A stretch of DNA of 64,000 nucleotides from Bradyrhizobium sp. CB1717. Its GTDB lineage: Bacteria > Pseudomonadota > Alphaproteobacteria > Rhizobiales > Xanthobacteraceae. This document shows, one piece after another, positions 6,675 through 60,060 of the stretch. The position numbers and the translations under genes are program-made. The notes beneath the pieces were generated by a model. That model was not told where the DNA came from and ran no database searches. It was given only the letters and a program-made list of their open reading frames with translations. The stretch covers positions 6,603,001-6,667,000 of the forward strand of contig NZ_CP121666.1 of assembly GCF_029714325.1 (NCBI RefSeq). Direction: 5' to 3'. Every line of letters begins with the position of its first letter. Positions within the stretch are counted from its first letter, which is position 1.

Positions 6675-8003
6675 TTACGCGCCCTTCGGCTTGAGCCCGC
6701 CATCCGCGGTCCAGCGGTCCGGCTCCGGACTGTGGCCGATCAGCGCGAGACCGTAGGCGATCGACTCGAACTGGTCGCCCGACATCAGGCGCTCGTTACC
6801 GAAGCGGTCGGCGAACAGCTTTCGGACCGCAGGCACGAAGGACGTGCCACCGGTCAAAAACACCTTCTCCACCTCGCGCGCGGTGATGCCGGCTTCATTC
6901 AGCACCTTGTCGACGGTCGCACCCAGACGGGCGATATCGTCGGCGATCCAGGATTCAAAATCCTTGCGGGTGATGGTCGCACCGATGTCGACGCCGCCGC
7001 CCTTGAAACGGAAGTCGGTCTGGTCCTGCCCCGACAGCGCGACCTTGGCGTCGGACACGGCGCGGTAGAGCGAGAAGCCGAGATCGAGGTCGACGATGGT
7101 GATGAAATCCTCGAGCAGCTTCGGCTTCAGCGCGGTGCGCGCCAGCTCGCGGAGCTCGCGCAGATCGCCGTTGCTCTTCATCATCGCAAGCTGATGCCAG
7201 CGCGCGAGGTTGGTGTAGTGGCCGCTCGGGACCGGCAGCACCTTGTCGAACGAGCGGAAGCTCGAGCCCTTGCCCAGCCGCGGCGAGACGACGTGGTCGA
7301 CGATGCGATAGTCGAACGTGTCGCCGGCAATGCCGATGCCGGCGTGTCCCAGCGGCTCGGCGCGGAGCGTGCCGCCCGCGCGGGAAAACCGCATTACCGA
7401 GAAGTCGCTGGTGCCGCCGCCGAAATCCGCAACCAGCACGGTGGCATCGCGCTCGAGCCTGCGGGCGAAGGAGAATGCCGCCCCCACGGGCTCGTAGACG
7501 TAGCGCGCGTGGCCGGCACCCAAGCGCTCGAACGCGGCCCGGTAGCGCTGCATCGCCAGCGCCTCGTCGGGATTGCCGCCGGCGAAGCGCACCGGGCGGC
7601 CGACCGTGATGTTGGAGGTCTCGAAGCCGAACTTCTCGCCGCCATGGCGCGCCAGCGTGCGCAGGAACGCCGCCAGGATGTCCTCGAACTTGAAGCGCTG
7701 CCGGAAGACTTGCGTGGTGTTGAAGCTGCTGCTCGCCGCGAATGTCTTGAACGACTGCAGGAAGCGGTGGACGTGGCGCCCCTCGAGGAACGTCTCGATC
7801 GCCCACGGGCCGCCTTCAGCCTGGGCGCCGGCACCCGGCCGGTCCTCCCAGAAACACAGCGCCGACACATAGGTGCTGTGGCGCTGTCCGCCGTGATCGA
7901 AGCGGATGGCCTCGACCCGGCGGTCGTCCGCCGCAAGCGCGACGACCGTGTTGCTGGTCCCAAAATCGATGCCGATCGAGACGGCGGGCGAGGCGCTCGA
8001 CAT
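6675..8003 (-). CDS. Hsp70-family (YegD-like) ATPase
   Basis: Encodes 442 aa with the actin-like ATPase fold of Hsp70 proteins. Phosphate-1 motif IGIDFGTSNTVVA is near the N-terminus, the phosphate-2 motif VADFGGGTSDFSV is in the middle, and an adenosine-type motif FLTGGTSFVPAVRK is near the C-terminus. The protein ends soon after the nucleotide-binding domain, so it lacks the DnaK substrate-binding domain. That is the layout of YegD-like chaperone relatives. Its client is unknown. It is transcribed away from the OxlT gene set. Confidence 0.88.
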   Translation of the reverse strand: MSSASPAVSIGIDFGTSNTVVALAADDRRVEAIRFDHGGQRHSTYVSALCFWEDRPGAGAQAEGGPWAIETFLEGRHVHRFLQSFKTFAASSSFNTTQVFRQRFKFEDILAAFLRTLARHGGEKFGFETSNITVGRPVRFAGGNPDEALAMQRYRAAFERLGAGHARYVYEPVGAAFSFARRLERDATVLVADFGGGTSDFSVMRFSRAGGTLRAEPLGHAGIGIAGDTFDYRIVDHVVSPRLGKGSSFRSFDKVLPVPSGHYTNLARWHQLAMMKSNGDLRELRELARTALKPKLLEDFITIVDLDLGFSLYRAVSDAKVALSGQDQTDFRFKGGGVDIGATITRKDFESWIADDIARLGATVDKVLNEAGITAREVEKVFLTGGTSFVPAVRKLFADRFGNERLMSGDQFESIAYGLALIGHSPEPDRWTADGGLKPKGA

Positions 8004-8350
8004 GAACCACTCTGACAGTTGATTGGAAAAGGGGGCAGAGCACTAACGGCTTTGGCCCGCCCTGCCAAGAGCCGGCTTGTTGCAGCGCGGTCGGAATTCG
8101 CAGCCCACCGGGCGCCGTGCCGGGTCGCGTGAACAGGGTTATTCTGCTCGCCGGAGGCCGTAATCCCTGTTTTTGTATCCACACCGGCAATTTTAAGTCC
8201 GGAACGGCCGCTTTAACGGGATATTATGTTGCAATGCGGCAGAGCGCGTGCTGCTATGCAATGGCATGCATAGACACTGGCATCTGGTATACGTAGATTG
8301 CCTTTCGAAATGAGACAGCAGTACTGACCGTCTCAAGAAAGGAATTACCG
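8004..8350. other. divergent intergenic region
   Basis: These 347 bp hold the promoters of the Hsp70-like gene (minus) and of the 46-aa gene (plus). One copy of the shared 31-bp motif is at 8268-8298. No further gene is evident. Confidence 0.6.
8268..8298 (+). promoter_or_regulatory. shared operator-like motif, copy 1
   Basis: Contains TGGCATCTGGTATACGTAGA. The core TGGTATAC is at 8285-8292, about 55 bp before the 46-aa gene. It aligns without gaps to copies at 8659, 10156 and 11723. This is the most divergent copy, as it lacks the CTTG at the left end. Confidence 0.6.
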
Positions 8351-8491
8351 ATGTCCAAGACCGCCACCGTCGCTCTCGCCCCCTCCTCCTCCTCGCTGTT
8401 CGCCCGCTTCCTGGCCGCGGTCGACCGCTTCCTGATGGCGAGCGCCGAGATCTCGAATCACAACGGCGACCTGCCGCGCTTCGGCCTCTAA
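8351..8491 (+). CDS. 46-aa protein of the OxlT operator set
   Basis: Encodes MSKTATVALAPSSSSLFARF and ends GDLPRFGL. A Ser-rich N-terminus precedes an amphipathic helix (LFARFLAAVDRFLMASAEIS). A strong AAGAAAGGAA ribosome binding site precedes the ATG, and a terminator follows downstream, so it is a complete single-gene unit. No family is recognised. The shared upstream motif ties its expression to the two OxlT-type transporters and the CBS protein. Confidence 0.65.
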   Translation: MSKTATVALAPSSSSLFARFLAAVDRFLMASAEISNHNGDLPRFGL

Positions 8492-8557
8492 GCCCGTGCT
8501 TTTGCGCTGCCGAGGCAGCGCGCCGGCTTCGGAACTTTCAACATTCGACTTTTGAAG

Positions 8558-8583
8558 AATGGCCCCGCAGGACGGGGCCATTT
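8558..8583 (+). terminator. rho-independent terminator after 46-aa gene
   Basis: AATGGCCCCG, CAGGA, CGGGGCCATT form a perfect 10-bp stem with a 5-nt loop, and T's follow. It lies 66 bp after the stop codon and separates this gene from the first transporter. Confidence 0.8.
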
Positions 8584-8658
8584 CTACTTGTGCTGTCCTG
8601 AGTCACAGCCGCACCCGGACAAGGCCCTGCGGCATTTGCGCACGGTGACCGGACCAGC

Positions 8659-8689
8659 GCTTGAAGCTTGGCATAATGCATACAAGAAT
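8659..8689 (+). promoter_or_regulatory. shared operator-like motif, copy 2
   Basis: GCTTGAAGCTTGGCATAATG continues into CATACAAGAAT, 47 bp before the first OxlT-type gene. It contains a possible -35 (TTGAAG) with the conserved TGGCAT..TG.ATAC inside the spacer. Confidence 0.65.
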
Positions 8690-8735
8690 GCCCCTCCAGC
8701 GCTCGCAGAAAATTAGAGGCGCCACGGGAGGCTTT

Positions 8736-10022
8736 ATGACGGACATGGTGCAGGCAACGGCCCCTACAGCCGCGCGCGTTAGCGACACGTATCGCTGGGC
8801 GCAATTGGCGATCGGTGTAGCGGCCATGGTGATGATCGCCAACTACCAATACGGCTGGACGTTCTTCGTCCCCGACATCCAGAAGAAGTTCGGCTGGGAT
8901 CGCGCTTCGATCCAATGGGCGTTCACACTGTTCGTGCTGTTCGAGACATGGCTCGTGCCGATCGAAGGATGGTTCGTCGACAAATACGGTCCGCGCATCG
9001 TGGTTCTCGTCGGCGGTGTGCTCTGCGCCATCGGCTGGGCGATCAACGCACAGGCCACCTCGCTCAACGGCTACTACCTCGGCATGATCATCGCGGGCAT
9101 CGGCGCCGGTGGCGTCTACGGCACCTGCGTCGGCAACGCGCTGAAGTGGTTTCCGGACAAGCGCGGTCTTGCCGCCGGCATCACCGCCGCGGGCTTCGGT
9201 GCGGGCTCCGCGCTGACCGTCGCGCCGATCCAGGCCATGATCAAGGACAGTGGATTCCAGACCACCTTCCTCTATTTCGGCCTCGGACAAGGCATCATCA
9301 TCTGCATCCTCGCCTTCTTCCTGCTCGCGCCGAAAGCGGGTCAGGTGCCGAGCGTGGTGGCGAATGCCAATATCATCCAGACCCGGCGCAACTATCAGCC
9401 GACCGAAGTGCTGCGCCAGCCGATCTTCTGGCTGATGTACTTCATGTTCGTGATCGTCGGCGCGGGTGGACTGATGGTCACCGCGAACCTGAAGCCGATC
9501 GCGGTTGACTGGAAGGTCGACAGCGTGCCGGTGACGCTGATGGCGGTGACGATGACCGCGGTGACCTTCGCAGCGACCATCGACCGCGTGCTCAACGGCC
9601 TGACGCGTCCGTTCTTCGGCTGGATCTCCGACATGATCGGCCGCGAGAACACGATGTTCATCGCCTTCGGCATGGAAGGCTTCGGCATCTGGATGCTCTA
9701 CCTCTGGGGCCACGATCCGGTCTGGTTCGTGCTGCTCTCGGGCTTCGTGTTCTTCGCCTGGGGCGAGATCTACTCGCTGTTCCCCTCGACCTGCACCGAC
9801 ACGTTCGGCGCCAAGTTCGCGACCACCAATGCCGGCCTGCTCTACACCGCGAAGGGCACCGCCGCGCTGCTCGTCCCGGTCGCAAACCTGATGCAGCAGT
9901 CGTCGGGCACCTGGGACAGCGTGTTCATCATCGCGGCTGGCGCCAACATCCTGGCGTCGCTGCTGGCGATCGCGGTGCTGAAACCCTGGCGCAAGGTCGT
10001 GGTCGCGAAATCGACCCTCTGA
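8736..10022 (+). CDS. oxlT: OxlT-type oxalate/formate antiporter family MFS transporter
   Basis: Encodes 428 aa of a 12-segment major facilitator. It has the OFA-family features: an N-terminal IANYQYGWTFFV first helix, the cytoplasmic motif WFVDKYGPRIV after helix 2, and the GTCVGNALKWFPDKRGLAAG loop. The founding member OxlT exchanges oxalate for formate across the inner membrane. The start at 8736 (MTDMVQATAP) follows a CGGGAGG ribosome binding site; upstream in-frame ATGs would extend over the operator. It is flanked by its own operator and a strong terminator, so it is transcribed alone. The substrate is inferred from family only; OFA members also carry other small carboxylates. Confidence 0.87.
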   Translation: MTDMVQATAPTAARVSDTYRWAQLAIGVAAMVMIANYQYGWTFFVPDIQKKFGWDRASIQWAFTLFVLFETWLVPIEGWFVDKYGPRIVVLVGGVLCAIGWAINAQATSLNGYYLGMIIAGIGAGGVYGTCVGNALKWFPDKRGLAAGITAAGFGAGSALTVAPIQAMIKDSGFQTTFLYFGLGQGIIICILAFFLLAPKAGQVPSVVANANIIQTRRNYQPTEVLRQPIFWLMYFMFVIVGAGGLMVTANLKPIAVDWKVDSVPVTLMAVTMTAVTFAATIDRVLNGLTRPFFGWISDMIGRENTMFIAFGMEGFGIWMLYLWGHDPVWFVLLSGFVFFAWGEIYSLFPSTCTDTFGAKFATTNAGLLYTAKGTAALLVPVANLMQQSSGTWDSVFIIAAGANILASLLAIAVLKPWRKVVVAKSTL

Positions 10023-10051
10023 CACACTCCAACACAGCTGATCCAAACACG

Positions 10052-10084
10052 ACGCCCGGCCTCACGGCCGGGCGTTTTCGTTTT
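10052..10084 (+). terminator. rho-independent terminator after first OxlT-type gene
   Basis: ACGCCCGGCC, TCAC, GGCCGGGCGT form a perfect 10-bp stem followed by TTTCGTTTT. Confidence 0.92.
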
Positions 10085-10155
10085 GAGCAGGGCTTTCGGC
10101 ATTCCGTAAAACCCGAAAGGAACTCGTAATTTCTTGATGCAGGGACCAAGTTAGG

Positions 10156-10186
10156 ACTTGCATTCTGGAATATGGTATACCAAGCT
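10156..10186 (+). promoter_or_regulatory. shared operator-like motif, copy 3
   Basis: The core TGGTATACCA (10173-10182) is a perfect 10-bp palindrome. The left part ACTTGCATTCTGGAATA matches copies 2 and 4. It lies about 100 bp before the second OxlT-type gene. An even-spaced TGGTATACCA site would suit a dimeric GntR/FCD-type regulator (inference). Confidence 0.7.
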
Positions 10187-10283
10187 GCCGGCCGCGCTTG
10201 CGACGATAAGCCACAACATTTGCGACACTGGGTCATCTTGCAATCCCAGGTCGCAATCAATCAGGCGCGTTGGGAGGTTCTTG

Positions 10284-11606
10284 ATGATTTCCAGCACGGA
10301 CGGCGCCGTCACGGCCGCCCCTCTTCGCACCGGTTTCCGCTGGCTTCAGCTCGTCATGGGCATCGTCTGCATGGCGATGATCGCCAACCTGCAATATGGC
10401 TGGACGCTGTTCGTCGATCCGATCGATGCCGCGCACCATTGGGGACGCGCCGCGATCCAGCTCGCCTTCACCATCTTCGTCGTCACCGAGACCTGGCTGG
10501 TGCCGGTGGAGGCCTGGTTCGTCGACAAATACGGCCCGCGCATCGTCATCATGTTCGGCGGCGTGATGATCGCGCTGTCCTGGGTGCTCAACTCCTACGC
10601 CGACTCGCTCACTTTGCTCTACGCGGCCGCGATCGTCGGCGGCATGGGCGCGGGCGCCGTGTACGGCACCTGCGTCGGCAACGCGCTGAAATGGTTTCCC
10701 GACCGCCGCGGCCTTGCCGCCGGCGCGACCGCCGCGGGCTTCGGCGCGGGCGCAGCCCTCACCATCGTGCCGATCGCGACCATGATCGCATCGAGCGGCT
10801 ATCAACAGGCATTCCTCACCTTCGGCATCGGCCAGGGCCTGATCGTGTTCGTGCTCGCCTTCTTCATCCAGCCGCCGCGGATATCGATCCCGCCGCGGAA
10901 GAAGCAGCTCAATTTGCCGCAGACCAAGATCGACTTCACCCCGCCGCAAGTGCTGCGCAGCCCTATTTTCTGGGTGATGTACCTCGTCTTCGTCATGGTC
11001 GCCTCCGGCGGCCTGATGACCGCGGCGCAGATCGGCCCGATCGCGCACGACTACAAGATCGCCGACACGCCGGTGACGCTCGCCGGCTTCCAGATGGCGG
11101 CGCTGACCTTCGCGATCTCGCTCGACCGCATCTTCGACGGCTTCGGACGCCCCTTCTTCGGCTGGGTCTCCGACACGATCGGCCGCGAGCACACCATGTT
11201 CATCGCCTTCGGCACCGCCGCGGTGATGCTCCTGGCGCTGTCGGCCTATGGCCAGAATCCTGTTGTCTTCGTGCTCGCGACGGCGGTGTATTTCGGCGTG
11301 TTCGGCGAGATCTACTCGCTGTTCCCCGCGACCTGCGGCGACACCTTCGGCTCGAAGTTCGCAACGACCAACAACGGCATGCTCTACACCGCCAAGGGCA
11401 CCGCCTCCCTGCTCGTTCCGCTCGCAAGCGTGATCTCGGCAACGTACGGCTGGAAGGCCGTGTTCGTGGTGGCGGTGGCGCTGAACGCAACGGCCGCGCT
11501 GATGGCGCTGTTCGTGATCAAGCCGCTGCGCCGCTCCTTCATCCTCGGCAAGGAAGCCGAGACCGCCGACACGGCGACCGGCAGCGCCAAGACCGAGACG
11601 GCGTAA
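10284..11606 (+). CDS. oxlT: second OxlT-type MFS transporter
   Basis: Encodes 440 aa and is closely similar along its whole length to the upstream transporter: MIANLQYGWTLFVDPI, WFVDKYGPRIVIM and GNALKWFPDRRGLAAG correspond one to one. The pair is a tandem duplication. The sequences have diverged mainly in the central loop (about residues 215-235) and at the ends. The start ATG at 10284 follows a GGGAGG ribosome binding site. It is transcribed alone between its own operator and terminator. It may differ from the first copy in substrate or expression rather than be a redundant copy. Confidence 0.87.
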   Translation: MISSTDGAVTAAPLRTGFRWLQLVMGIVCMAMIANLQYGWTLFVDPIDAAHHWGRAAIQLAFTIFVVTETWLVPVEAWFVDKYGPRIVIMFGGVMIALSWVLNSYADSLTLLYAAAIVGGMGAGAVYGTCVGNALKWFPDRRGLAAGATAAGFGAGAALTIVPIATMIASSGYQQAFLTFGIGQGLIVFVLAFFIQPPRISIPPRKKQLNLPQTKIDFTPPQVLRSPIFWVMYLVFVMVASGGLMTAAQIGPIAHDYKIADTPVTLAGFQMAALTFAISLDRIFDGFGRPFFGWVSDTIGREHTMFIAFGTAAVMLLALSAYGQNPVVFVLATAVYFGVFGEIYSLFPATCGDTFGSKFATTNNGMLYTAKGTASLLVPLASVISATYGWKAVFVVAVALNATAALMALFVIKPLRRSFILGKEAETADTATGSAKTETA

Positions 11607-11628
11607 GCAGCCACACACGAGAGCTTTC

Positions 11629-11662
11629 AAAAGGGGCGCAGCGATGCGCCCCTTTTCTTTTT
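11629..11662 (+). terminator. rho-independent terminator after second OxlT-type gene
   Basis: AAAAGGGGCGCA, GCGA, TGCGCCCCTTTT form a perfect 12-bp stem followed by CTTTTT. Confidence 0.93.
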
Positions 11663-11722
11663 GGCCTGCCGACAAACGTCAGTATTGCTGCCGCAAGATT
11701 TTTCGGATCAGCCAAATCCAGC

Positions 11723-11753
11723 GCTTGACGATTGGCATTATGTATACCACACT
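11723..11753 (+). promoter_or_regulatory. shared operator-like motif, copy 4
   Basis: GCTTGACGATTGGCATTATG continues into TATACCACACT, 30 bp before the CBS-domain gene. It includes a near-consensus -35 (TTGACG), with the conserved core in the spacer. Confidence 0.65.
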
Positions 11754-11783
11754 TCCTCCTGTCATTCACCCAGGGAGGTCGCA

Positions 11784-12212
11784 ATGCTGGTCGGAGACAT
11801 TCTGCGCAAGAAGACGCCGCGCGTTGTCACGGTGCGAATGAACGAAACGGTGGGTATCGCCGCCAAGCTGATGCGCGCCAACAATATCAGCGCGCTGGTA
11901 GTCAAGGACGTGGTCCGCTCCGAGGGCAACACCGCGGTCGGCATGTTCACCGAGCGCGACGTGGTGCGCGCCGTCGCCGAGCACGGCGCCAATGCCGTCA
12001 ACGTCAAGGTCTCGCAGCTCGTGTCGGTGCAGCAGCTCGTCTCCTGCACCTCCTCGGACACGATCGAGCACGTTCGCCATCTGATGAACCGGCATCATAT
12101 CCGCCACCTGCCGGTCATCGACGATTACAGCCTCGTCTCCGTGATCAGCATGCGCGACATCGCCGCTGCCATGGACGAGGCCATCAACGGCACGCCGCAA
12201 GCGGCAGCCTAA
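11784..12212 (+). CDS. tandem CBS-domain protein
   Basis: Encodes 142 aa made of two CBS motifs: VVTVRMNETVGIAAKLMRAN...GMFTERDVVRAV in the first half, and LVSCTSSDTIEHVRHLMNRH...HIRHLPVIDD...VISMRDIAAAM in the second. A CBS pair forms a Bateman module that binds adenosyl ligands and usually senses energy or cofactor state. No catalytic or DNA-binding domain is attached. The ATG at 11784 follows CAGGGAGG. The shared upstream motif links it to the OxlT-type genes. Stand-alone CBS proteins are common near oxalate/formate genes in rhizobia, but its target is unknown. Confidence 0.9.
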   Translation: MLVGDILRKKTPRVVTVRMNETVGIAAKLMRANNISALVVKDVVRSEGNTAVGMFTERDVVRAVAEHGANAVNVKVSQLVSVQQLVSCTSSDTIEHVRHLMNRHHIRHLPVIDDYSLVSVISMRDIAAAMDEAINGTPQAAA

Positions 12213-12245
12213 CAAGCGGCAACTCTTCCCCTGCGACTACCGGCC

Positions 12246-12279
12246 CCGGCTCGGATCCTTCCGAGCCGGACCGGATCTT
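12246..12279 (+). terminator. terminator-like hairpin after CBS gene
   Basis: CCGGCTCGGA, TCCT, TCCGAGCCGG form a perfect 10-bp stem. Only a short T-run (ATCTTT) follows, so strength is uncertain. Confidence 0.55.
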
Positions 12280-12315
12280 TCGTCCCAAATTCCGGTCTCT
12301 GCTCGCGAGGATTTC

Positions 12316-13335
12316 ATGAAGATCTGCATCTACGGCGCCGGCGCGATCGGCGGATATCTCGGAGTTCAGCTCGCGCGCGCGGGCGCCGACGTCAGCCTGG
12401 TCGCACGCGGCGCGCACCTCGCCGCCATGCGCGAGCGCGGCCTGACGCTGCTCGCCGGCGAGGAGACGCACACCGTGCATCCGCGCTGCACCGACGATCC
12501 CGCCGAACTCGGCGTGCAGGACTACATCATCATCACGCTGAAGGCGCATTCGATCACCGGCGTGATCGAGAAGATGCAGCCGCTGCTGGGGCCCCACACC
12601 CGCATCGTCACCGCCGTCAACGGCATCCCCTATTGGTACTTCTACAAGCACGGCGGCCAATACGAGAACTCGACGCTGGAGAGCATCGACCCCGGCGGCC
12701 GGCAATGGCGCGAGATCGGCGCCGAGCGCGCCATCGGCTGCATCGTCTATCCCGCCACCGAGATCGAGGCGCCGGGCGTGATCCGCCACGTCTACGGCAA
12801 TAATTTCCCGCTCGGCGAGCCCTCCGGCGAGATCACGTCCGACGTGCAGCGCCTCGCCGATCTCTTCGTCGCCGCCGGCCTGAAGGCGCCGGTGCTCGAC
12901 CGCATACGCGACGAGATCTGGCTGAAGCTGTGGGGCAATGTCTGCTTCAACCCGATCAGCGCGCTGACCCACGCCACGCTCGACGTGATCTGCACCGATC
13001 CCGCCACGCGCGCGCTGTCGCGCGCGATCATGGTGGAGACGCAAGGCATCGCCGAGACCTTCGGCGTCAAATTCCGCGTCGACGTCGAGCGTCGCATCGA
13101 GGGCGCCCGCAAGGTCGGCGCGCACAAGACCTCGATGCTGCAGGATCTCGAGCGCGGCCGCCCGATGGAGATCGACCCGCTCGTCACCGTGGTGCAGGAG
13201 ATGGGCCGCCTCACCGGCATTCCGACGCCCGCGCTCGACTCGGTGCTGGCGATGGTGAGCCAGCGCGCCCGCATCGCCGGCCTCTATGACGGCACCTCCG
13301 CGCCATCAGATCCTCGCGCACTGGCGGTGGCGTGA
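12316..13335 (+). CDS. 2-dehydropantoate 2-reductase-like oxidoreductase
   Basis: Encodes 339 aa. The N-terminal Rossmann fold reads MKICIYGAGAIGGYLGVQLA, with the GxGxxG nucleotide-binding motif. The C-terminal ApbA/PanE domain contains IWLKLWGNVCFNPISALTHA, with the family lysine and asparagine. PanE reduces ketopantoate to pantoate with NADPH in pantothenate synthesis. In this context, coupled to an FAH hydrolase, it may act on another 2-keto or hydroxy acid. Its stop overlaps the next start (TGATG), so the two genes are translationally coupled. The symbol is withheld because paralogues of this family are numerous in rhizobia. Confidence 0.82.
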   Translation: MKICIYGAGAIGGYLGVQLARAGADVSLVARGAHLAAMRERGLTLLAGEETHTVHPRCTDDPAELGVQDYIIITLKAHSITGVIEKMQPLLGPHTRIVTAVNGIPYWYFYKHGGQYENSTLESIDPGGRQWREIGAERAIGCIVYPATEIEAPGVIRHVYGNNFPLGEPSGEITSDVQRLADLFVAAGLKAPVLDRIRDEIWLKLWGNVCFNPISALTHATLDVICTDPATRALSRAIMVETQGIAETFGVKFRVDVERRIEGARKVGAHKTSMLQDLERGRPMEIDPLVTVVQEMGRLTGIPTPALDSVLAMVSQRARIAGLYDGTSAPSDPRALAVA

Positions 13336-14120
13336 TGGCGGGCGAGATCAAGCACTGGCTGCGCTTTCGCCATGGCGGCACGACCGGCTTCGGCACGCTG
13401 ACATCCTCCGGCATCAGCGTGCACGAGGGCGAGCTGTTCGGCCGCAATGCCGCGACCGGCAGGTCGCTGGCGCTGTCGGAGGTCGAGCTGCTCGCGCCCT
13501 GCGTGCCCAGCAAGATCGTTGCGCTCTGGAATAATTTCCACGCGCTCGCGGCCAAGCTGAACCAGCCCGAGCCGCCGGAGCCGCTATATCTGCTGAAGGC
13601 CACCACCAGCATCACGACGCCGGGCGCCGTGATCCGCCGCCCCTCCTATTACGACGGCAAGACGACTTACGAGGGCGAGCTCGGCATCGTCATCGGCAAG
13701 ACCTGCGCCCGCGTGTCGCCGGCTGAGGCCGACAGCTTCATCTTCGGCTACACCTGCGTCAACGACATCACCGCCAACGACATCCTGACCAGCGATCCCA
13801 CCTTCCCGCAATGGGCGCGCGCCAAGGGCATCGACGATTACGGCCCGTTCGGCCCGGTGATCGCGACCGGCCTCGATCCCGCAAAGCTTACGGTGCGCAC
13901 CATCCTCAACGGCGCCGAGCGGCAGAACTATCCGATCTCGGACATGATCTTCACCGCGCAGGAGCTGGTGAGCAGGATCTCCCACGACATGACCCTGCTC
14001 CCCGGCGACCTCATCGCCGTCGGCACCTCGGTCGGCGTCGGCGTGATGAAGGAGCCGGTGAACACGGTCACCGTTGCGATCGACGGCATCGGCGAACTCA
14101 CCAACGAGTTTCGGCTGTAG
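13335..14120 (+). CDS. fumarylacetoacetate hydrolase family protein
   Basis: Encodes 261 aa. The C-terminal FAH domain carries the metal-binding acid motif YEGELGIVIGK and a further DIT.ND region (YTCVNDITANDI), and ends with LLPGDLIAVGTSVGVG. Members cleave C-C bonds in ring-fission or keto-acid products using a divalent metal. The ATG at 13335 overlaps the preceding stop by one base; a GTG at 13332 is an alternative. It is coupled to the reductase upstream. The substrate is not evident. Confidence 0.87.
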   Translation: MAGEIKHWLRFRHGGTTGFGTLTSSGISVHEGELFGRNAATGRSLALSEVELLAPCVPSKIVALWNNFHALAAKLNQPEPPEPLYLLKATTSITTPGAVIRRPSYYDGKTTYEGELGIVIGKTCARVSPAEADSFIFGYTCVNDITANDILTSDPTFPQWARAKGIDDYGPFGPVIATGLDPAKLTVRTILNGAERQNYPISDMIFTAQELVSRISHDMTLLPGDLIAVGTSVGVGVMKEPVNTVTVAIDGIGELTNEFRL

Positions 14121-14137
14121 CGGCAGACGCAGTGCCG

Positions 14138-14219
14138 TAGCCCGGATGGAGCGAAGCGTAATCCGGGGCCTTCGCATGACGATGGACAGACGGATTGCGC
14201 TTCGCCCCATCCGGGCTAC
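14138..14219. repeat. intergenic palindromic repeat, family B
   Basis: GTAGCCCGGATGGAGCGAAG (arm 14138-14167) is answered by an inverted arm at 14191-14219 ending CCATCCGGGCTAC. Related copies are at 14511-14593, 17355-17441 and 56361-56392. Confidence 0.8.
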
Positions 14220-14377
14220 AGGCTACGGCCGGCGCAGCCGCATCGTGCTCCGGAATGAAGGCTCGGCGGCTATTCTCGCCGCAGCGCGGCAATATTGATC
14301 CTGCGCAAATCGCGCCGTCGCGGCCGCCATTATCCTTCCCAGCAACAGATCGGTTTTCTGATGCCAGGGAGGACGCC

Positions 14378-57804: not shown

Positions 57805-60060
57805 TCACACGAAATCGATGAACTTGTTGAAGGGCATCTCGCGGATGCGCTTCCCGGTCGCCGCAAAGATCGCGTTGGCGAGCGCAGGCGCGGCCGGCGG
57901 AACCGGCGGCTCGCCGACCCCCCTCACCTTCGGATCGTTCTCGAGCCCGCGAACCTCGATGACCGGGCATTGATAGATCCGCATCGCTTCGTGGTGATTG
58001 TAGTTGGTCTGCTGCACCGCGCCCTTGGCGTAAGTGAGCTCGCAGTTGATGGCGTGGCCTAGTCCCCAGATCACGCCGCCCTGCACCTGGTTCTCGAAAT
58101 TCACGGGATCGACGACCTTGCCGACGTCGACCGCGACCCAGACCTTGTCGATCCTGATGCCCTCCGGCGTCGCCGTCACCTCGACGACTTCCGCGGTCGG
58201 CGTCCCGAAGGACTCCACGAAGGCGACGCCGCGCCCTCGGCCGTTGCCGAGCGGTCCCTTCCAGTCCGACATCTCCGCGACCGTCTCCAGCACCTTGCGA
58301 TAGTGCGGCACGGTACACATCGCGATGCGCGCCTTCATCGGATCGAGCCCCGCGGCATGGATCAGCTCGTCGATGAAGCTTTCGGTGAAGAAGCCCGAAG
58401 TCGAGGCGCCGACCGAACGCCACGTGGTGCTTGGCGAAAGCCCCCGCGCCTCGTAGCTCGTGGCCCGGAAATTGGGGATGTCGTAATAGACGTTCCAAAG
58501 CCCAGCGGCCAATTGCCCGTCGGGATCCTTCGAGGGCGTGCCCGAACGTTCGAGCAGCCCCTTGAGCGGAGCAGTCGAAGCCAGTTGCAGATCGGCCGCG
58601 ACGATCTTGCTCTTGTCGACGCTGCCCCGGTGCCTGGCAATCGCAATCTGCCGCGGAATGTCCTGGAGGAAATCCTCCTCGCGCGAGAACACCAGCTTGA
58701 TCGGCGTTCCCTTCATCTGGTTGGCGATCTCGGCAAGAACGCGGACGTTCTCGTATTCGAGACGGTGGCCGAAACTTCCACCGGTCCACTGATTGTGGAA
58801 GGTGACCTGCTCGGGTTTGAGGCCGATCGCCGTCGCCGCGACATATTGCACGAAGCGCGGGCTCTGATGGCCGACCCAGATCTCCATCCCCTTGTCGGTG
58901 ACGAGGCCGATCCCGTTCAGCGGCTCGAGCGGCTGATGTGCCACATAGGGCGCGCGATATTCGGCTTCGACGCGCGTCCCGGCCTTCAGCCCGGCTTCGA
59001 TGTCACCGATCTTCCGCCACTCCTTGCCGAGGAACTCGGGCTTGAACGAGGATTCCAGAACCTTCCAATGGTCGGCCTGCTCGGCAGGATAGGCTGAAGG
59101 CGCCCACTCGCAAGCGATGGCGTCGACCGCCTTCATCGCGTACCAACTGTTCGTCGCGATCACCGCGACGCCATTCTTGATCTCGAGGATGTTCTTGACC
59201 CCCGGCATCACGCGCGCCTTGCTCGCGTCGTATGATTTCAGCGGCTGCCCCTTGGCGGGGTTCAGCTTGACGGAGGCATAGAGCATGCCATCCATTTTCA
59301 TGTCGATGCCGAACTTCAGCTCGCCCATCACTTTCGAGCGGACGTCCAGCCGCATCATCGGCTTGCCGAGCATGCGCCATTTGGACGGGTCGCGCGGCTG
59401 CGCATCGAGCACCGGCGGAATTTTCGACGCCTCGGCCGCGAGTGCGACATAGGCGATCTTGCTTCCGTCGGGCAGGATCACATGGCCTGATTGCGTGCGA
59501 AGGTCGGCCACCGCGACGCCCGAACGTTTGGCCGCAGCGGCCTTGAGCGTTTCGCGCGCGACCGCACCGGCTACACGCAGCTTCTCGTAGGTGTCCGGGA
59601 TTGTGCTCGATCCACCGGTCATTTGCAGGCCAGATTGCCTCAGCCACTCGAGCGTCTTGGCGCGGGCTTCCTCCGCGGCCGGACTTTGGTCCGCAGCCAC
59701 GAACGGCGCAAACTCGTCGGCAAAGCCGGTGTTGAAATAGGCGGGACTGGGACCGGCGAAGCGGATCTCGAACTGGCCGGGATCGAGGTCCATTTCTTCG
59801 GCGATCATGATCGGCTGCACCGATCCGACACCCTGGCCGATATCGGCGTGCTGCGCGATCAGCGTGATTTTCTCCGGGCTGATTTCGACCCAGGGATTGA
59901 AGCTCACGGAATTCGGTCCGAGGCCGGCAGCCAATGGATTGTCGCCGGCGGCCGGTGCGGCCGCTTCGACGCGGCCGTAGGCGCCGAACGCGACGCCGCC
60001 GGCGACAGCCGCGGAGCCGAAAACGAAGGCGCGGCGGGAAAGGCGCTGCATGTGGCCCAT
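57805..60060 (-). CDS. iorB: isoquinoline 1-oxidoreductase-type molybdopterin subunit
   Basis: Encodes 751 aa of the xanthine dehydrogenase/aldehyde oxidase large-subunit class. The N-terminus has a Tat signal (QRLSRRAFVFGSAAVAGGVA). Conserved cofactor motifs include FHNQWTGGSFGHRLEYENVR and the C-terminal GVGEPPVPPAAPALANAIF, in which the Glu of GVGE is the catalytic base. With IorA it hydroxylates N-heterocycles or oxidises aldehydes in the periplasm. The actual substrate is unknown. The start is at 60060 (an ATG 9 bp later is possible), 1 bp after the iorA stop. Confidence 0.92.
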   Translation of the reverse strand: MGHMQRLSRRAFVFGSAAVAGGVAFGAYGRVEAAAPAAGDNPLAAGLGPNSVSFNPWVEISPEKITLIAQHADIGQGVGSVQPIMIAEEMDLDPGQFEIRFAGPSPAYFNTGFADEFAPFVAADQSPAAEEARAKTLEWLRQSGLQMTGGSSTIPDTYEKLRVAGAVARETLKAAAAKRSGVAVADLRTQSGHVILPDGSKIAYVALAAEASKIPPVLDAQPRDPSKWRMLGKPMMRLDVRSKVMGELKFGIDMKMDGMLYASVKLNPAKGQPLKSYDASKARVMPGVKNILEIKNGVAVIATNSWYAMKAVDAIACEWAPSAYPAEQADHWKVLESSFKPEFLGKEWRKIGDIEAGLKAGTRVEAEYRAPYVAHQPLEPLNGIGLVTDKGMEIWVGHQSPRFVQYVAATAIGLKPEQVTFHNQWTGGSFGHRLEYENVRVLAEIANQMKGTPIKLVFSREEDFLQDIPRQIAIARHRGSVDKSKIVAADLQLASTAPLKGLLERSGTPSKDPDGQLAAGLWNVYYDIPNFRATSYEARGLSPSTTWRSVGASTSGFFTESFIDELIHAAGLDPMKARIAMCTVPHYRKVLETVAEMSDWKGPLGNGRGRGVAFVESFGTPTAEVVEVTATPEGIRIDKVWVAVDVGKVVDPVNFENQVQGGVIWGLGHAINCELTYAKGAVQQTNYNHHEAMRIYQCPVIEVRGLENDPKVRGVGEPPVPPAAPALANAIFAATGKRIREMPFNKFIDFV

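Follow-up and report, generated by a model that had tools for sequence, protein, structure and literature searches.

A 17-bp inverted repeat in the promoters of oxalate transport genes of Bradyrhizobium points to a probable oxalate-utilisation regulon under a GntR-FCD regulator

The window analysed here, a 64-kb stretch of the 9.23-Mb genome of Bradyrhizobium sp. CB1717 (contig NZ_CP121666.1, positions 6603001-6667000), carries a series of forward-strand genes that begins with the gene of a 46-amino-acid (46-aa) protein (8351..8491), continues with the transporter genes oxlT1 (8736..10022) and oxlT2 (10284..11606), and leads into the gene of a 142-aa CBS-domain protein (11784..12212; PF00571). 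Both transporters are major facilitator superfamily (MFS) proteins of the oxalate/formate antiporter family (TIGR04259; 647 and 650 bits, respectively, cut-off 335). A gene for an apbA/panE-family reductase (12316..13335; family profile match) and an overlapping one for an FAA-hydrolase-family protein (13332..14120; PF01557) follow on the same strand. An earlier note on this DNA had described four operator-like sites of 31 bp (8268-8298, 8659-8689, 10156-10186 and 11723-11753), one ahead of each of the first four genes; their positions and gap-free alignment proved correct, as did the statement that each lies some 30-100 bp before a start codon. The shared letters required some revision: TGG(C/A)AT is indeed common to the four sites, but site 1 departs from the second proposed element, (A/T)TG(C/G/T)ATAC, and the invariant sequence is TGG(C/A)AT-N3-G(C/T)ATAC.

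The description as operator-like stands, although the core is not a generic 31-bp box but a 17-bp inverted repeat, TGG(C/A/T)AT-N5-AT(A/G)CCA, with half-site centres 11 bp apart. This core takes up the spacer of a predicted sigma-70-like promoter and reaches into the -10 box with its right end. Upstream of oxlT1, the core of site 2 (TGGCATAATGCATACAA, 8669..8685, + strand) lies within a predicted promoter at 8661..8689 (-35 TTGAAG, 8661-8666; -10 AAGAAT, 8684-8689); upstream of oxlT2, that of site 3 (TGGAATATGGTATACCA, 10166..10182, +) lies within one at 10158..10186 (-35 TTGCAT, 10158-10163; -10 CAAGCT, 10181-10186); and upstream of the CBS gene, that of site 4 (TGGCATTATGTATACCA, 11733..11749, +), a perfect inverted repeat if C/T is allowed, lies within one at 11725..11753 (-35 TTGACG, 11725-11730; -10 CACACT, 11748-11753). 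In these three promoters TTG stands 8 bp ahead of the core, and a 17-bp spacer separates the -35 box from a -10 box of the form xAxxxT. The predicted promoter of the 46-aa gene (8271..8299, +; -35 TAGACA, 8271-8276; -10 TAGATT, 8294-8299) also has a spacer of 17 bp, and the core of site 1 (TGGCATCTGGTATACGT, 8278..8294, +) has a degenerate right half. The right half-site may be the variable one because it runs into the -10 box. The cited part of the start-site map of B. japonicum gives the promoter as TTG-N(16-18)-TATA (PMC4842269); the -10 boxes in the window match the published TATA only in part, while TTG and the 17-bp spacer are conserved at oxlT1, oxlT2 and the CBS gene.

Conservation was examined among close relatives, nearly all Bradyrhizobium among those named, with orthologue identity limits for upstream counts of 50% (46-aa protein), 60% (OxlT1), 80% (OxlT2) and 70% (CBS protein). 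The core occurs with at most one mismatch upstream of 31/31 oxlT1, 24/26 oxlT2 and 32/32 CBS orthologues; the two misses at oxlT2 are paralogous loci (L182 and L183), and the two CBS paralogues excluded by the 70% limit (55% identity) both have the operator. TTG and xAxxxT are held in fixed register in 28/28 distinct oxlT1 promoters, 24/26 oxlT2 promoters and 32/32 CBS promoters. At site 1, the left half and the inner TGGTATAC are conserved upstream of all 34 orthologues of the 46-aa gene, where the site departs from the repeat at one or two positions; in these promoters the register is off by one base, with xAxxxT in 27/34 and TTG in only 13/34. Identity to the commonest letter across orthologous promoters was 0.88-0.97 in the core and 0.61-0.78 in the flanks.

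Within the window, TGGMATNNNGYATAC has four exact matches, all of which are the four sites, and no match at one mismatch, the next best having two. A symmetric matrix built from 26 sites, all outside the window (4 from this genome and 22 from regulator loci of relatives), placed the four sites at ranks 1-4 in the window (scores 24.3, 20.8, 16.5 and 11.2, with the fifth at 10.1), and none of 60 random windows had a fourth-best site scoring above 8.0. At up to three mismatches, TGGMATNNNGYATAC is no more frequent in the window than in shuffled sequence (71 versus 71.4 matches), and we therefore gave weight only to exact matches and conservation. The fifth-best site (AGGCATAGAGCATGCCA, 59274-59290, score 10.1) falls inside the random-window range and is probably due to chance. 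An Rfam scan of positions 8000-12400 returned no match.

The earlier note had supposed that the regulator lies outside the window and had guessed at a GntR/FCD-type factor, and both suppositions agree with what we found: a one-mismatch scan of the genome revealed a cluster of matches about 4.8 kb to the left of the window (stretch L033), where a GntR-FCD gene, here gntR (contig 6598349-6599044, or from a possible GTG start at 6598313; about 4 kb beyond the left edge of the window), adjoins oxc and frc. The product combines a GntR helix-turn-helix domain (PF00392, 47 bits) with an FCD domain (PF07729, 77 bits), both over cut-off, and reached the cut-off of none of the NCBIfam equivalogs (best phnR_burk, 94 of 271.5 bits). 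In L033 an NDP-forming-type acyl-CoA ligase is encoded on the minus strand, and gntR, oxc (oxalyl-CoA decarboxylase; TIGR03254, 1052 bits) and frc (formyl-CoA transferase; TIGR03253, 756 bits) run in the opposite direction. The ligase-gntR intergenic region holds a pair of perfect inverted repeats, TGGCATTTGGTATGCCA and TGGCATGTGGTATGCCA, the latter preceded by CTTGACA at the same spacing as in the window promoters, and this pair recurs before gntR in 80/80 loci fetched by similarity to the regulator. The regulator is at least 93% identical in 35/36 same-genus genomes, and a confusing close paralogue is unlikely, because its nearest FCD relative in this genome is only 34% identical. Residues N144, H148, H192 and H214, which may form the metal/acid pocket of the FCD domain (one Asp/Asn and three His), show little or no variation in an alignment of ten rows, of which one (L225, on the wrong strand) was ignored. 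A TctC-family gene near the ligase in this genome (L033:10806-11771) has no exact site.

For TGGHATNNNNNATRCCA, this genome has six exact forward matches and the reversed control none; summed across 18 genomes, the figures are 114 and 4. By setting the genome count against six exact sites found in fetched stretches, the six repeats were placed at gntR (two), oxlT2, the CBS gene, sucC and the formate dehydrogenase operon. The genome scan that the earlier note had recommended, with frc/oxc and formate genes in mind, thus found the motif ahead of both the gntR-oxc-frc unit and the formate dehydrogenase operon; for the latter genes (fdhBA), a site within two mismatches is present in 28/28 genomes (15 exact, 7 with one mismatch and 6 with two). 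The motif is also present upstream of a divergent HSP70-like gene, which shares its intergenic region with the 46-aa gene, in 13/18 cases, and in 10/23 upstream regions of the acyl-CoA ligase, a count in which the ligase start was mis-set. No operator of their own was found upstream of orthologues of oxc (0/26), frc (0/27), apbA (0/24) or the FAA gene (0/22), which fits their transcription from the gntR and CBS promoters. Two relatives share an identical exact 17-mer, TGGAATGAGATATGCCA (G005:C1:7069486 and G021:C1:7560996), and a one-mismatch site in this genome, TGGGATAATGCATAC (L034:9886-9900, contig 2641885), lies about 100 bp upstream of a gene that is weakly ApbA-like.

The association of regulator and operator extends beyond the genus. 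The regulator was detected at E <= 1e-40 in 66/249 genomes of the order, and we scanned 18 regulator loci from beyond the genus (L248-L265, of which L248 comes from the same family). In 13 of the 18 the exact operator is present, mostly near gntR, oxc, frc, oxlT, the ligase, sucC or fdh.

We propose, with a probability of roughly 85%, that the four sites serve as operators in a regulon for oxalate utilisation under the GntR-FCD regulator, which would keep it repressed until a metabolite of the pathway releases it. A dimer of the regulator would bind TGGCAT-N5-ATRCCA. Repression is proposed because the repeat in the spacer overlaps the -10 box, so that protein bound there should exclude RNA polymerase; most FCD proteins are repressors, and an operator in the spacer fits this mode of action. 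Release by a candidate effector (oxalate, oxalyl-CoA, formyl-CoA or formate) would then switch on transport (oxlT1, oxlT2), CoA activation and decarboxylation (the acyl-CoA ligase, frc, oxc) and formate oxidation (fdhBA), along with the CBS-apbA-FAA unit, the 46-aa protein and the suc operon.

Several results weigh against this proposal. Five of the 18 loci beyond the genus have no exact operator, the sites upstream of gntR in these five being weaker, and at L253, L254, L259, L263 and L264 no good site was found within 350 bp upstream of that gntR. The 80 loci with the repeat pair are close relatives and not independent, and L033 taken alone is unexceptional at two mismatches, its five matches being reached by 16/200 shuffles. 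In other genomes some of the exact repeats, among the matches listed, were not placed at pathway genes. The whole-genome scan at one mismatch showed no enrichment (45 matches versus 41 in the control), and weak sites were for this reason not used to extend the regulon. Finally, site 1 is weak as a palindrome, as 21/60 random windows hold at least one site scoring 11.2 or more; by itself it is unexceptional in this respect, whereas the four sites jointly are exceptional, and support for site 1 comes from its conservation upstream of 34/34 orthologues of the 46-aa gene.

The strongest competitor, which we nevertheless consider unlikely, keeps both operator and regulator but makes the protein an activator that binds the spacer and, with the metabolite, remodels the promoter in the manner of MerR. 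The fixed register of the operator in the spacer would suit such a mechanism, as would the poor match of some -10 boxes to TATAAT; however, the spacer measures 17 bp, compared with 19-20 bp in promoters of the MerR family, the protein is of the GntR-FCD and not the MerR type, and the repeat overlaps the -10 box. Somewhat less probable still is that another transcription factor reads the operator and gntR is a mere neighbour, as might be argued from the several other-family loci that lack a good site directly upstream of gntR. Against this stand the site pair before gntR in all the close-relative loci, the operator at most of the regulator loci elsewhere in the order, the distance to the nearest FCD paralogue, and the poor record of the nearby IclR gene, which has the motif in just 2/18 of its upstream regions. 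That the motif is instead a promoter sequence read by an alternative sigma factor, such as sigma-54 or an extracytoplasmic function (ECF) factor, would account for its promoter position and its fixed distance from start codons, but appears highly improbable for an inverted repeat that occurs twice, in both orientations, between the ligase gene and gntR and is accompanied by its own TTG/xAxxxT in sigma-70 register; moreover, the four sites, read from their letters, share no GG-N10-GC, and the sigma-54 consensus consists, in the cited part of its source, of GG and GC boxes at -24 and -12 (PMC4842269). A remnant of duplicated promoters, or chance, has a negligible claim even though oxlT1 and oxlT2 are paralogues (~56% identical), because the site also precedes unrelated genes (CBS, gntR, fdhBA, sucC and the 46-aa gene) and is conserved across genomes while its flanks diverge.

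Under the proposed GntR-FCD control, the window genes would be expressed as separate transcripts answering to one regulator, as the earlier note had suggested. Its further claim that each of the first three units ends in a strong terminator holds for oxlT1 (10051..10076, +) and oxlT2 (11629..11656, +), where the terminator scan found one, but not for the 46-aa gene, which is followed by a strong hairpin (8559..8581, +) that is at best a possible terminator, with a weak, less T-rich tail, and that the scan missed. The hairpin downstream of the CBS gene has no T run, for which reason CBS, apbA and the FAA gene probably form one unit headed by the CBS gene. The apbA product is a candidate oxalyl-CoA reductase, on the basis of a 59% identical apbA near gntR of another family and of the role of an ApbA/PanE-type protein in Cupriavidus necator considered below. 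The 46-aa gene looks protein-coding, given its codon-position bias (142/60/259 substitutions over 17 orthologues); its product matched no Pfam or NCBIfam family and has 85 relatives, among which every entry that names an organism names Bradyrhizobium.

Three further arrangements were seen around these genes. In L182 and L183 (genomes G004 and G010) a second cluster holds a distant CBS gene (55%) with the operator upstream, apbA, FAA and an oxlT2-like gene, and adjoins genes for an IclR protein and glyoxylate carboligase (gcl identified in L182). In some relatives (L151:10396-13929 and L247:11694-15174) a transporter resembling the tripartite tricarboxylate type lies between the 46-aa gene and oxlT1 and has its own exact operator (L151 ~10509; L247 11694). 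Downstream of the FAA gene in the window, a long hairpin (14118-14240; -79.8 kcal/mol) resembles a dispersed intergenic repeat.

A more unusual member of the predicted regulon is the suc operon. A perfect repeat, TGGTATATGGTATGCCA, starts 75 bp upstream of sucC, between mdh and sucC-sucD-sucA, and is exact in 21/23 same-genus sucC loci and 0/7 loci of other families. One of the two same-genus misses has a single mismatch (L209), and the other (L202) is the copy next to mdh in G015, a genome that has two sucC genes; there the extra sucCD pair, without sucA, has two operators and the mdh-sucC-sucD-sucA copy none. The present genome has one sucC. In other families, four of the five genomes examined (G241, G176, G232 and G104) contain a pair of close sucC copies, and in each case one copy of the pair lies inside the gntR cluster, with an exact operator nearby in three of the four clusters (not G104); the fifth genome, G269, has a single close copy, outside the gntR cluster. 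From this distribution we read the sucC operator as the capture of the housekeeping suc operon where a spare copy is absent. We give even odds to the broader reading that the control exerted by a single oxalate-sensing GntR regulator extends to a step of the tricarboxylic acid (TCA) cycle and that sucCD belongs to the oxalate programme: in lineages that have a spare sucCD, this spare would be retained either behind the oxalate operator or among the clustered oxalate genes, with the housekeeping copy left outside such control, whereas in single-copy Bradyrhizobium the housekeeping operon (sucC, sucD and sucA) would itself have come under the operator. The supply of succinyl-CoA could perhaps serve to prime oxalate activation by CoA transfer.

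FadR-subfamily (FCD) GntR regulators such as UxuR/ExuR, NanR and LldR have TGGTATACCA-like palindromes as their operators. The system described here resembles this subfamily in its GntR winged helix joined to an FCD domain, its short palindromic operators in promoters and its local catabolic regulon, but differs in having TGGCAT half-sites with N5 between them and oxalate genes as targets. GlcR of Paracoccus denitrificans, likened here by its description in the cited part of the source, is also a GntR-type repressor beside an operon for a C2 acid in an alphaproteobacterium; however, it controls glycolate oxidase, and P. denitrificans is described there as not growing on oxalate (PMC11323563). 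The same enzymes are found within the genus in the frc-oxc genes of Bradyrhizobium diazoefficiens (bll3156-bll3157), for which the cited parts of the two reports name no regulator or operator (PMC5996035, PMC4926349). There, the cytoplasmic fraction contained more Frc and Oxc on arabinose, with both also found on mannitol, and oxalate on arabinose is thought to arise from glyoxylate (PMC5996035); Frc and Oxc are expressed in nodules, soybean nodules contain oxalate, and Bradyrhizobium degrades oxalate (PMC4926349). In C. necator, an frc-oxc operon is likewise accompanied by an ApbA/PanE-type protein (ApbA2), acting between glyoxylate and oxalyl-CoA, but the main text of that paper does not contain the term GntR, and its cited part describes no operator (PMC7486775). 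Our literature searches turned up no report of a GntR-type regulator, or of an operator, that serves oxalate genes.

The type of control proposed, a GntR-FCD regulon, is thus an ordinary one in a setting that is new to the literature searched, with one unusual member, sucC. It provides a candidate regulator, an operator and a list of targets that spans transport, activation, decarboxylation, formate oxidation, the CBS protein and the small protein, and this list is testable with one deletion strain. The operator at sucC would link a side pathway with the central flow of carbon, and genomes with a single copy of sucC, set against those with two, would offer a natural experiment in the capture of a housekeeping operon by a catabolic regulon.

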